Below are positions 6,538 to 49,544 of a stretch of DNA of 64,000 nt, one piece after another; the first letter of the stretch is position 1, and each line of letters starts with the position of its first letter. Source of the DNA: Phycisphaerae bacterium (lineage in GTDB: Bacteria > Planctomycetota > Phycisphaerae > Sedimentisphaerales > Anaerobacaceae). The notes under the pieces were generated by a model. It searched no databases and was not told the origin of the DNA. It saw nothing but the letters and a program-made list of their open reading frames with translations. Location: positions 80,158 through 144,157 of the forward strand of contig JAQTLP010000004.1 in the NCBI GenBank assembly GCA_028714855.1, in the 5' to 3' direction. A program made the position numbers and the translations under genes.

Positions 6538-8100
6538 ATGGAAAAGATAAAACTCTACGATACCACCCTTCGCGACGGCATGCAGGCCGAGGGCGTCAGC
6601 TTCTCACTCGAGGACAAGCTCTCAATCGCCGCCTGCCTCGACGAGCTTGGCCTTGATTATATTGAAGGAGGTTTCGCCGCTTCCAATCCCAAGGAAATGC
6701 AGTTCTTTACCGAAGTGGCCAAGCTCGGTCTGAAGAATTCTAAAATTGTGGCCTTCGGCAGCACCCGCAGGGCTGATGCGAAAGTTGAGGCTGACGTGTC
6801 ACTTGCAGCCATTCTCGCCTGCAAAACCAAAGTGGCTACCATTGTCGGTAAGGCCTGGGACATGCAGGTAAAAGCAGTTCTGGGCTGTTCGCTCGATGAG
6901 AATTTACAGCTCTGCGTCGACTCCGTTGAATACCTTAAAAAGCACGGCATTGAGGTGATTTTCGATGCCGAACACTTATTCAACGGATACAAGGAAAATA
7001 GCGAATATGCGATGAAGGTTCTGGCTGCCGCTGCCGAGGCCGGCGCCGATGTGCTGGTGCTTTGCGATACTAACGGCGGCTGCCTGCCGGACCAGATTTA
7101 CGAAATTACAAAGGCCGTATGTGAAAAATTCCCGTCGCTCTCAATCGGCATCCATACCCATAATGACAGCGATTGCGCCACCGCCAATACTTTGGCCGCT
7201 GTTCGTGCAGGCGCTCGACACGTTCAGGGCACTATCAACGGCTTGGGAGAACGCTGCGGAAACGCAAATCTCTGCACCGTCATTCCCAACCTTGCTTTCA
7301 AAATGGGGTTCGATTGTCTGGCTCCCGAAAAAATCAAGACCCTCACCGAGGTTTCGCGATTCGTTTTCGAGCTCGGCAACCTCAACCCGGTAACGAATAT
7401 GCCCTATGTAGGCGAAAGCGCCTTCGCGCACAAGGCAGGCCTCCACGTTGACGCTTTGCTGAAAGACAAGCGCACTTATGAGCACGTTGACCCTTCCGTC
7501 GTTGGCAATGAACGCCGTTTCCTCATCTCCGAGTTAAGCGGCAAATCCAACGTTCTCGCTGAGCTTGAAAAAGCAAAAATCACGCAGGATAAGAAACTGG
7601 CAAAAGAAATTCTCACCCGCGTTCAGGAGCTTGAGAACGAAGGCTATCAGTTCGAAACTGCGAATGCCTCCTTTGACCTGCTCATAAAGAAGATACTCGG
7701 CACATATAAACCCTCTTTCGAGCTTGTGAAATATTACGTAACTACGGAAAGGCGCACCTCCGGCGAAATGATTAATGAGGCCACGGTCAAACTTAAAGTC
7801 GGCGATAAAGTCCAGCATGTTGTCGGCGAAGGCGACGGTCCCGTCAACGCCCTCGATGCCGCTCTGCGTAAAGCGCTCGAAAACCCCTATCCTGTCATCA
7901 GGGACATCCGCTTAATTGATTATAAAGTGCGTGTGGTCAACGCTAAAGCCGGCACCGCCGCTCGTGTCCGCGTAATAATCGAATCACGCGACAAAACCTC
8001 GACATGGGGCACGGTCGGCGTATCCGAAAACGTCATCGAGGCTTCCTGGCAGGCCCTTTCCGACTCCATCGAATACAAACTGCAGAAAGATGCGAAGTGA
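6538..8100 (+). CDS. cimA: (R)-citramalate synthase, CimA type
   Basis: Condenses pyruvate with acetyl-CoA to citramalate, the first step of the threonine-independent route to isoleucine. The ATG at 6538 is preferred over the TTG two codons upstream because GGAG lies 8 bases before it. The 520-residue protein opens with IKLYDTTLRDGMQAEGVSFS, the DRE-TIM metallolyase signature (R and D for catalysis), and carries the metal-site HTHND motif and NGLGERCGNAN. The last ~130 residues are a LeuA-type allosteric domain, expected to give isoleucine feedback inhibition. The sequence matches the long CimA subfamily (ScGGxAxSNPKE-like segment) better than 2-isopropylmalate synthase. Confidence 0.92.
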   Translation: MEKIKLYDTTLRDGMQAEGVSFSLEDKLSIAACLDELGLDYIEGGFAASNPKEMQFFTEVAKLGLKNSKIVAFGSTRRADAKVEADVSLAAILACKTKVATIVGKAWDMQVKAVLGCSLDENLQLCVDSVEYLKKHGIEVIFDAEHLFNGYKENSEYAMKVLAAAAEAGADVLVLCDTNGGCLPDQIYEITKAVCEKFPSLSIGIHTHNDSDCATANTLAAVRAGARHVQGTINGLGERCGNANLCTVIPNLAFKMGFDCLAPEKIKTLTEVSRFVFELGNLNPVTNMPYVGESAFAHKAGLHVDALLKDKRTYEHVDPSVVGNERRFLISELSGKSNVLAELEKAKITQDKKLAKEILTRVQELENEGYQFETANASFDLLIKKILGTYKPSFELVKYYVTTERRTSGEMINEATVKLKVGDKVQHVVGEGDGPVNALDAALRKALENPYPVIRDIRLIDYKVRVVNAKAGTAARVRVIIESRDKTSTWGTVGVSENVIEASWQALSDSIEYKLQKDAK

Positions 8101-45728: not shown

Positions 45729-46335
45729 CGAATTACAAAAAACCTGGCAAAAAGAAACAGGCATTTCAAAACTGACTGTCGACTCAGATTTGCTTCTTCG
45801 AGAAGTCAAGAGGAATAAAGAGCACTTTGAATCAACCATCTTCTGGCGGGATGTCCGAGAAGTGGGAGTGAGTTTTGCCCTCGCAGTATTTTTCTTGTAT
45901 CAAGGTATGAAATTGAACCTGTGGTTTTTATATCTTCCTGCATTGGCGTGTATTTTTGTGGGAGTTTTTATGGTAATTGACAGGGTTATTCAAAAGAAAA
46001 AAACACCGAAACCCAGTGCTCCTTTGGCGGGCTGTATCAAAATTTCGCTTGCACAGGTTAAGCATCAGATATGGTTGCTGAGGAATGTTCTCTGGTGGTA
46101 TCTGCTTCCATTAGCGGTTGGAGCAGCCTTGTTTTGGGGGCACGTAGGTTGGCGGGTCCGCAATGACAGCGGGACCGGATTGATATTCATCGGCGGATGC
46201 TTTGTCGGACTTATTATTCTTTGCACAGGTGTATATTATTTGAATCAATATGCCGTGCGGAAAGGATTGATGCCCCGAAAGCAGGAGCTTGAGGCGCTGC
46301 TGAAAAATCTCAGCAACGATAATAAAGCTACATAG
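45718..46335 (+). CDS. Membrane protein, likely anti-sigma partner
   Basis: 205 residues. A soluble N-terminus of about 45 residues is followed by four transmembrane helices (about 50-70, 72-92, 122-142, 152-174) and a short C-terminal tail. It lacks the HxxxCxxC zinc motif of ZAS anti-sigmas. Because its start overlaps the sigma gene, I infer that it holds the sigma factor at the membrane. No other family is recognised. Confidence 0.6.
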   Translation: MTFNELQKTWQKETGISKLTVDSDLLLREVKRNKEHFESTIFWRDVREVGVSFALAVFFLYQGMKLNLWFLYLPALACIFVGVFMVIDRVIQKKKTPKPSAPLAGCIKISLAQVKHQIWLLRNVLWWYLLPLAVGAALFWGHVGWRVRNDSGTGLIFIGGCFVGLIILCTGVYYLNQYAVRKGLMPRKQELEALLKNLSNDNKAT

Positions 46336-47836
46336 TCGTAGTCATCTCTGCAAAATACGAACTGCGGGCAAATGGCAAGGAGATAACCCATTTAAAGCCG
46401 AGGTCAGTTGCTTTTTGTTTCCACCAGTCGAATTTCGCAGGCGGTATGTATTGGACAACTTCGAGCGAATTTTTCGAGGGTTTAAGGTATTGGCCGATTG
46501 TGATTCTGTCACAGCCGGCGTCCCGCAAATCTCTTAAGGCTTGCTCTACCTCGGCATCTGTTTCTCCCAAGCCGAGCATAATCGATGATTTTGTTAGGGC
46601 GTCTTTATAAGTTTGGCTGGCCGATTTAAGCAGGTCTAAGGAGCGTTGATAATTTCCGCCGAGGCGGGCTTTTCGGTATAAAGAGGGGACGGTTTCGATA
46701 TTGTGCGCGAAAACAAACGGCAAAGCATCAGCCAGAATTTCGATAGCTTGCCCCTGACAATTTCGAAAGTCAGGCGTTAGTATTTCGAATTTCACGTCTG
46801 GGCATCTGTTTCTTATTTGGTTGATGCAATCGCGAAAGTGGCCTGCGCCGCCATCGGGCAGGTCATCGCGATTGACGCTGGTGATTACGAGGTATTTGGC
46901 GTTCATTTGCTCTGCCATCTCAGCTATTCTTGCCGGCTCGGTTGGGTCGGGCGGAAGGGGTTTGCCGCAGGTTACCGAGCAGAATTTACAATTCCGCGTG
47001 CAGACCTCGCCCAGAATCAGGACTGTTGCTGTGCCCCTTGACCAGCACTGGCCTCGGTTTGGACAGTTGGCATTATGGCATATTGTATTTACCTTGAGAG
47101 AGTTTAAGATTGTCTCAGTGGAATTGTATTTATCATCTGCTGGCAGAGGCCTTTTCAGCCATTCCGGCAATCTGCGCCGGCCGAGATGTCTTTTTAGAAT
47201 TCCAGACAATTGGTTTTTAACTTCATCCATCGGGTGTGTGATTGCGGTTTCGTTCAGTACGGATGTCATTTTGACGTTTTCAAGACCGCAGGGTATGATG
47301 TAATCGAAGATGCTCAAATCGTTCCGGATATTTATTGCCATGCCGTGGCTGGTTACAGATTTCGACACGCGCACGCCGACCGAAGCTATTTTTTTGTCGT
47401 TTACCCATAAGCCTGGAAAACCTTTTCGCCTTTGGGTTTTGACATTCAGTTGTTCCAGCAGCTCAATGCCGATAGCTTCAAGTTTTCGGATATATTCACT
47501 GATGTCTAAGCCAAGCTCTCGCAGATTTAGAATCGGGTAAAAAACCAGCTGTCCCGGATTGTGTGCCGTTGTTCCGCCGCCTCTTCGGACATCGACAACG
47601 TCTATATTCTGTTTTTTCAGACTTTCAATGTCTGCGCAAAGCTTGTTGGCGTTTTGCCGGGCGCCGAGAGTAATGACCGGCAGGTGCTCGGTGATTAAAA
47701 TGGTGTTCGATATTTCGCCATGCTGCCTTTCTTTGTGCAGTTGGTGCTGCTGCAGCAGGACGTCTCGGTAACCAGCAAGACCGCAATCGACAATACGTAA
47801 AGATGAGTTTTTAGTTTTTTCAGCTATTGTCAGCAC
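46328..47836 (-). CDS. lipBA: Fused octanoyltransferase-lipoyl synthase (LipB-LipA)
   Basis: 502 residues, GTG start. Residues about 1-220 are LipB: catalytic Lys in DKKIASVGVRV (K149), Cys in IIPCGLENV (C183) and the RRGGGTTAHNPGQ motif that holds octanoyl from acyl carrier protein. Residues about 222-502 are LipA: auxiliary cluster Cys 253, 258, 264 (ICHNANCPNRGQCW), radical SAM Cys 279, 283, 286 (CTRNCKFC) and the C-terminal RSSYFAE, whose Ser binds the auxiliary cluster. The whole pathway from octanoyl-ACP to lipoylated protein is thus in one chain. Both sets of key residues are intact. It ends opposite the anti-sigma gene with an 8-base overlap and follows birA. Confidence 0.92.
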   Translation of the reverse strand: MLTIAEKTKNSSLRIVDCGLAGYRDVLLQQHQLHKERQHGEISNTILITEHLPVITLGARQNANKLCADIESLKKQNIDVVDVRRGGGTTAHNPGQLVFYPILNLRELGLDISEYIRKLEAIGIELLEQLNVKTQRRKGFPGLWVNDKKIASVGVRVSKSVTSHGMAINIRNDLSIFDYIIPCGLENVKMTSVLNETAITHPMDEVKNQLSGILKRHLGRRRLPEWLKRPLPADDKYNSTETILNSLKVNTICHNANCPNRGQCWSRGTATVLILGEVCTRNCKFCSVTCGKPLPPDPTEPARIAEMAEQMNAKYLVITSVNRDDLPDGGAGHFRDCINQIRNRCPDVKFEILTPDFRNCQGQAIEILADALPFVFAHNIETVPSLYRKARLGGNYQRSLDLLKSASQTYKDALTKSSIMLGLGETDAEVEQALRDLRDAGCDRITIGQYLKPSKNSLEVVQYIPPAKFDWWKQKATDLGFKWVISLPFARSSYFAEMTTTM

Positions 47837-47882: not shown

Positions 47883-48668
47883 TTATTTTGCAATAGTGGT
47901 TTGAGCGGCGTGGAACATTCTGACGCCGCCGCGGTCGAGCTGGACAATTAAACCTTTTTCGGGATCGACGCCGATGCAGTTGCCGGTAAATTTCCTGCCG
48001 TTGTAAATGACTGTTATTCTCTGGTTCAGCAGGGTGTTTAGTTTGCGCCATCGGTCAATTATTTTTTTGCCTGTATCTTCCGCTGCTTCAAGCCAGTGGT
48101 CTAACGAGGAAAGTAGTCTCCTTGCCAGCGAGATGCGGTCGCATACCAATCGGCCTTCGATGTCGATGCTTGTCGCGGTTGTTTGCAGCTCGTCGGGGAA
48201 CAAGTTTTTCTTTTGGTGGCAGTTTATTCCTATGCCTATTATATAAGCGGTGCTGCCGTTGACCTTTTTTGACTCTACCATAATGCCCGCCACTTTTTTA
48301 CCATTTAAGATTATATCGTTAGGCCATTTGATTTTTGCGTGGCTGTGGGCGATTTTTCCGACGGCCTCGGCGACTGCTACGGGACAGGCCAGCGAGAGCA
48401 TCTCAGGGTTGCACTTGCAGGAGGTCAGAAGAATCGAACAAAGAATACTGTCGCAGCGCCTGCTGAGCCATTTGGCGCCGGTCCTGCCCCGGCCGGCGGT
48501 TTGCTCTTCGGCGAAGATTGCAAGGCCGTCGTTGTCTTTGTTTTTCGCGTATTCGGCGGCGATGTCATTTGTGCTCGATGTGTGATTGTAGACGAGGATT
48601 TTTCTGCCGATACGCTTGGTGTTTACCTTTATTTTGTCTGGGTCGAGATGTTCGTGCGCTGGAGACAT
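47883..48668 (-). CDS. birA: Biotin--protein ligase without DNA-binding domain
   Basis: 261 residues. Catalytic motif GRGRTGAKW (adenylate formation), KWPNDIILNGKKVAGIMVE, and a C-terminal SH3-like domain. No N-terminal winged helix, so it is a mono-functional ligase (class I) rather than a repressor. It attaches biotin to carboxyl carrier proteins. It lies 3 bases after the nadC stop and 47 bases before lipBA, so the genes form one operon with uvrB. Confidence 0.92.
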   Translation of the reverse strand: MSPAHEHLDPDKIKVNTKRIGRKILVYNHTSSTNDIAAEYAKNKDNDGLAIFAEEQTAGRGRTGAKWLSRRCDSILCSILLTSCKCNPEMLSLACPVAVAEAVGKIAHSHAKIKWPNDIILNGKKVAGIMVESKKVNGSTAYIIGIGINCHQKKNLFPDELQTTATSIDIEGRLVCDRISLARRLLSSLDHWLEAAEDTGKKIIDRWRKLNTLLNQRITVIYNGRKFTGNCIGVDPEKGLIVQLDRGGVRMFHAAQTTIAK

Positions 48669-48671
48669 AGT

Positions 48672-49544
48672 TCAACTGTCAACCGCAATGTCAACGGCCC
48701 TTGCCGAGTGAGTGATTTCACCTACGGCGATTCTGTCGATGCCGCACTGGGCAATAGCGGATACATTGCTCAGCGATATATTACCGGAGGCCTCGAGTAG
48801 CGGCCTCCTGCCTTTGCGGCACATTCTGTTTCGCATATCCACGGCGTGTTTTAACTGCCACTGGCCCATATTGTCGAGTAGCACAATGTCTATGCCAGGA
48901 ATCTTCAGGACGTAGTTCAGCTGGTCGTCAACGTGGTCGACTTCTACGGCGACAAATTTAGCGCCCTTTAATTTTTTTGCGCGTTCGATTATTTTTTTCA
49001 GTTTCGGGTAAAAGTTTCTGCCGAGTAGCGACAGATGGTTATCTTTAATCAGCACGGCGTCGTATAATCCGAGGCGGTGATTATGTCCGCCGCCGCAGCG
49101 GACGGCGTATTTTTCGATGGTTCGCCAGCCGGGCATTGTCTTTCGGGTGTCGTAGATTTTTGCTTTTGTCCCTTCAACAGCGCGGACAAATTTGCGAGTT
49201 GTCGTGGCTATACCGCTGAGCCGCTGCAGAAAATTGAGCATAACCCGCTCGGCGCTTAGCATGGCGCGCACCGGGCCTTTGATTGTGGCGATTTTACATC
49301 CGACATAAGCTACCTGGCCATCCTTTACAATGACCTTTAACTTAAGTCTCTTGTCGAAAGCAGCGAGGATTTCCTTGGCGATACCCATTCCGCACACCAC
49401 TATTTCCTCGCGGGATATGATATTTGTTTTGGCAATAACGTTGTCTTTAAAGAGAAGCTCGCTGGTTATATCGCCGCTGCCGAGGTCTTCTTCGATTGCC
49501 ATTTTGATTAGCTGGCGTGCTTCTTTGTTGTTCAGTTGTTTCAT
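48672..49544 (-). CDS. nadC: Nicotinate-nucleotide pyrophosphorylase (carboxylating)
   Basis: 290 residues. Converts quinolinate and PRPP to nicotinate mononucleotide. Key segments: ALxEDLG-type [70 protein letters not shown] and VEVDHVDD. The start overlaps the uvrB stop by four bases (ATGA). Confidence 0.95.

Follow-up and report, generated by a model that had tools for sequence, protein, structure and literature searches.

The lipB-lipA locus

The window, by which we mean the whole 64,000-nucleotide stretch of DNA analysed here, contains on its minus strand a gene in which the two consecutive enzymes of lipoate assembly, LipB and LipA, are encoded as one polypeptide. An earlier note on this DNA had described a LipB-LipA fusion of 502 residues at 46328-47836, with a short linker near residue 221. 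Our analysis bore out the fusion as a single reading frame, supplied the strand, which the note had omitted, and placed the junction at residues 219-222. The genes and features of the locus are as follows:

46328..47836, minus strand: lipB-lipA fusion gene, 502 amino acids, GTG start, stop codon at 46328-46330
47183..47836, minus strand: LipB octanoyltransferase domain, residues 1-218 (family match to residues ~7-218)
47390..47392, minus strand: LipB catalytic lysine, K149 (aligned to the LipB Lys/Cys dyad)
47288..47290, minus strand: LipB catalytic cysteine, C183, in PCG (aligned to the LipB Lys/Cys dyad)
47171..47182, minus strand: junction or linker, residues 219-222 (secondary structure and alignment)
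46340..47170, minus strand: LipA lipoyl synthase domain, residues 223-499 (TIGR00510, match to residues 220-497, and Foldseek)
47045..47080, minus strand: LipA auxiliary [4Fe-4S] motif CX4CX5C, C253/C258/C264 (motif in sequence)
46979..47002, minus strand: LipA radical SAM motif CX3CX2C, C279/C283/C286 (motif in sequence)
46355..46366, minus strand: LipA RSSY motif, residues 491-494 (motif in sequence)
47883..48668, minus strand: birA, biotin-protein ligase, upstream of lipB-lipA (TIGR00121, 154.6 bits; synteny)
48672..49544, minus strand: nadC, quinolinate phosphoribosyltransferase, upstream of birA (TIGR00078, 273.2 bits; synteny)

The minus-strand frame is free of stop codons over all 502 residues, while the opposite strand is dense with stops over the same interval. 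The linker is only ~4 residues long, with the final LipB helix (203-218) stopping at residue 218 and the motif LPEWL opening LipA at residue 223. The three genes nadC, birA and lipB-lipA lie on the same strand with gaps of 3 and 46 nt, and this order recurs in both remaining genomes of the genus as well as in several further relatives with the fused gene. Many members of the family (e.g. G405:C16, G406:C58, G408:C17 and G449:C87) have an E3-type (Pyr_redox_dim) gene just upstream of lipB-lipA, in the place occupied in the window's genus by nadC-birA.

Both halves retain the hallmarks of their families

The LipB half scored 163.9 bits against NF010925 (cut-off 155), 139.1 bits against TIGR00214 (cut-off 83.55) and 152 bits against PF21948, and fell under the cut-offs of models NF010922, NF010921 and NF010923. 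In alignments with LipB proteins of solved structure, two Thermus chains included, K149 and C183 fall on the catalytic dyad, and the RGG loop is formed by R85-G86-G87; the roles of the Cys/Lys dyad residues in LipB catalysis have been described (PMC9307952). Compared with LipB proteins of known structure (PDB 1W66, 2QHS), the entire catalytic domain, the loop, the dyad and the fold are alike, and the difference is the LipA domain fused at the C-terminus. Curated score, dyad and loop together thus place the N-terminal half in LipB.

The C-terminal half scored 364.5 bits against TIGR00510 (cut-off 310.25), and has CX4CX5C, CX3CX2C and RSSY in common with LipA/LIAS proteins, so that it belongs to LipA on curated score and motifs alike. 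In LipA the RSSY serine is a ligand of the auxiliary cluster (motif roles per PMC12246082). Identity to the solved LipA/LIAS structures (PDB 8TSK, 5EXK, 4U0P) is ~40-44% over the domain; unlike them, the window LipA has a short N-terminal region, with LipB directly ahead in place of its own start. Every catalytic residue that we checked in both halves is present, including all of those singled out in the earlier note (K149 and C183 of LipB, and the auxiliary and radical SAM cysteines of LipA).

The AlphaFold model of the 502-residue protein has a mean pLDDT of 91.8 and is confident within the domains; with a pTM of 0.73 it supports no definite placement of the two active sites relative to each other. 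In Foldseek searches the LipB half matched 2qhs (TM(target) 0.92) and 1w66 (0.85), and the LipA half matched human LIAS, M. tuberculosis LipA and T. elongatus LipA.

The nearest described architecture is NCBIfam NF053790, a bifunctional lipoate--protein ligase/lipoyl synthase (LplA-LipA fusion), in which LipA is likewise preceded by a lipoyl-attaching member of the same superfamily. However, its attaching half is named a lipoate-protein ligase, and the window protein matches the model over the LipA part only. Membership in NF053790 was rejected on a score of 356.7 bits against a cut-off of 800, with the match confined to profile positions 300-604 of 606. The other obvious counterpart, adjacent but separate lipB and lipA genes, would carry out the same two steps with two polypeptides. 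Neither a published LipB-LipA fusion nor any description of this gene architecture was found in the open-access literature searched. Some proteins of this kind may already carry the label of multifunctional fusion in automated protein databases.

Proposed function

We consider it very probable that the product is a bifunctional lipoate-assembly enzyme, with LipB and LipA on one chain, derived from adjacent genes by in-frame loss of a stop codon. On the basis of family membership, from which both reactions are assigned, the LipB domain would transfer octanoyl from acyl carrier protein, via C183 and K149, to the lysine of a lipoyl domain, and the LipA domain, which belongs to the radical SAM enzymes and has two [4Fe-4S] clusters, would then insert two sulfur atoms into the octanoyl group. 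The chemistry looks like that of the standard lipoate pathway, which the fusion seems to have rearranged in a small way without creating a new one. In the window genome, which is 98% complete, there is one LIAS_N and one LplA/LipB-type catalytic domain, both in the window protein; because searches of that genome found no further LipA or LipB and no lipoate ligase, the lipB-lipA product is probably its only lipoylation enzyme.

A different use of the same gene would be for LipA to be made also, or mainly, as a separate polypeptide, either from an internal start or by cleavage of the fusion. Candidate internal starts exist in the window gene (in-frame TTG at residues 210 and 223, ATG at 190 and 203), and the lipA start is coupled in relatives with split genes. 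We regard this as improbable, given that no obvious or good ribosome site was seen at the internal start codons of the window copy, that in most fused genes the stretch from the LipB end to the LipA core is free of start codons, the nearest in-frame ATG or GTG lying within conserved LipB sequence, and that evidence of a cleavage site is absent.

Distribution of the fusion

Across the window's order, 161 genomes were searched and the loci fetched. The same in-frame fusion was found in 21 genomes of the window's family, comprising about a dozen genera by group codes; the window's own genus is represented by all of its three genomes, and the other family loci with lipB and lipA near each other are split. 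A scan of genome contigs found the in-frame fusion in at least four Planctomycetota MAGs and in Desulfosarcina cetonica JCM 12296, with split adjacent genes elsewhere, so that the spread outside Planctomycetota (at least one case, Desulfosarcina cetonica) is a lower bound from a single scan. Across 392 genomes of the phylum, the matches listed outside the window genome covered essentially the LipA part only, and lipB and lipA are usually split in the phylum, in keeping with the premise that lipB and lipA are separate in most bacteria. Among plasmid records searched by tblastn, no annotated fusion was found in the best rows, and the two annotated whole-pair matches carry separate lipA and lipB. 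One single-contig genome (G422:C1) departs from the adjacency usual in the family, with lipB at 2818594-2819241 far from lipA at 118537-119373.

These data bear directly on whether the fusion could be an artefact of assembly or sequencing that joined two genes. In favour of an artefact are the split genes of most relatives and the origin of many of the genomes in metagenome assemblies. Against this, the 21 family genomes, several of which are single-contig assemblies (G418-G421), and the named strain of Desulfosarcina cetonica are all fused in frame, and both halves are under purifying selection (below); we therefore treat an artefact as having a negligible probability. The mark of such an error proposed in the earlier note, a stop or frameshift at residues 215-225 in relatives, is absent within the genus, where three of three genomes are fused in frame, but the distant relatives are indeed split.

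Probable origin from a coupled gene pair

In the split members of the family, lipA mostly starts at, or within a few bases of, the lipB stop, often with a 4-nt ATGA or GTGA overlap, and the pair is predicted to be translationally coupled. A small indel at the junction of lipB stop and lipA start, with loss of the stop in frame, would be enough to yield a fused gene, and the fusion appears to have arisen from adjacent, often overlapping genes repeatedly within the family, unless some of the changes were reversals.

A possible source of such indels is seen in the spacers and linkers themselves, many of which are made up of 7-bp repeats (CGAAATA, CACGAGC, AGACAGA). The same-base rate in spacers and linkers was 0.42 at lag 7 and 0.365 at lag 14, compared with ~0.26-0.30 at most other lags. 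As 7 is not a multiple of three and leaves a remainder of 1, gain or loss of any unit alters the frame, and changes in these repeats may drive switching between the fused and split states. The linker of the window copy is without a repeat. Tandem 7-bp repeats fill the spacers or linkers at loci such as L057, L061, L067, L084 and L140, and insertions, possibly of the same 7-bp kind, were noted within LipB of L085 and L109 and within LipA of L059, L072 and L073.

The history of these switches was assessed on a tree of fused and split states, on which gains are not separable from losses. At least nine changes are needed with Desulfosarcina included and at least eight in the family set. A single clade of the fused family members was rejected (p-AU 0.0005, from a quick tree with two trees compared), and fusion, or fission, has therefore occurred several times.

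Selection on the fused gene

Among fused relatives, dN/dS was 0.10-0.22 for LipB and 0.05-0.21 for LipA at dS of 0.4-1.9, values obtained by simple Nei-Gojobori counts in which some pairs are near dS saturation. Both halves are thus under purifying selection, and the linker codons alone are unconstrained, yet remain in frame. Over such distances, a frame without function would be expected to have been disrupted.

Does tethering promote hand-over?

With the two consecutive enzymes of lipoate assembly on one chain, the protein is a natural construct for the question of how octanoylated domains are handed over from LipB to LipA. A putative direct hand-over within the fusion is plausible, in that tethering might raise the chance that an octanoylated domain meets LipA next. 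The linkers of the fused genes range from ~4 to ~40 residues and vary freely, and the joined state has been gained or lost several times; these features argue against a rigid, finely tuned channel and fit either simple tethering or neutral fusion of genes that were already coupled. The free linkers would point at best to loose tethering, and otherwise to no effect of the fusion.

The neutral version of this account, in which the lipB stop was simply lost in a coupled pair, the linker is passive and tethering gives no channelling, is a serious contender, to which we assign slightly less than an even chance. The free variation of linker sequence and length fits it, as do the eight or more state changes on the family tree, with a single clade rejected, and the abundance of 7-bp repeats in spacers and linkers, in which one unit shifts the frame by one and could produce in-frame joins by chance. 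On the other side, fused genes group together on the tree (9 changes of state observed against 19.5 expected by shuffling, although near-copies add to the clustering), and the frame has been kept across whole genera at dS near 1. In genus g299 fused and split versions stand side by side, which allows close homologues with and without the fusion to be compared for its effect.

Lipoyl-domain clients in the window's genus

The window genome has two biotin/lipoyl domains, one AccB-like and one E2-like. The AccB-like domain adjoins a biotin carboxylase-like ORF, both names being a reading of the sequence. The E2-like protein, of 345 amino acids (G000:C6:48722-49759; L147:6723-7760), has lipoyl and acyltransferase domains and is without the E3-binding domain that is present in a relative. 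An E1-beta-like gene lies upstream of E2 in several of the relatives examined; in the window genome that position is taken by an aldolase-like ORF.

In the three genomes of the genus (98%, 98% and 89% complete), searches found neither GcvH nor a true E1 or canonical E3, and the E2-like protein is the sole lipoyl-domain client that they brought up. The E1_dh matches in the genus are weak, the two in the window's genome being transketolase-like proteins, and Pyr_redox_dim was matched in the window's genome only by an 818-residue frame whose tail reads as CoA-disulfide-reductase-like and rhodanese-like. These observations raise the speculative and, in our estimation, unlikely idea that in this genus the fusion would serve as a one-client machine for the E2-like protein, with lipoate used outside the 2-oxoacid dehydrogenase and glycine cleavage systems. 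Across the loci compared, GcvH is present in 9 of 21 fused and 33 of 50 split cases, counts that ignore shared ancestry.

Two frames were also noted. Around 7351-7668 of G000:C11 (L154), one frame of more than 700 amino acids reads as a histidine-kinase ATPase domain fused to a CoA-disulfide-reductase-like and rhodanese-like part. A second 2-oxoacid_dh acyltransferase domain occurs at G000:C1:198323-198994, with similar ones in most family genomes, in a frame of ~230-280 amino acids, which is too short to hold a lipoyl domain of usual size besides the acyltransferase domain.
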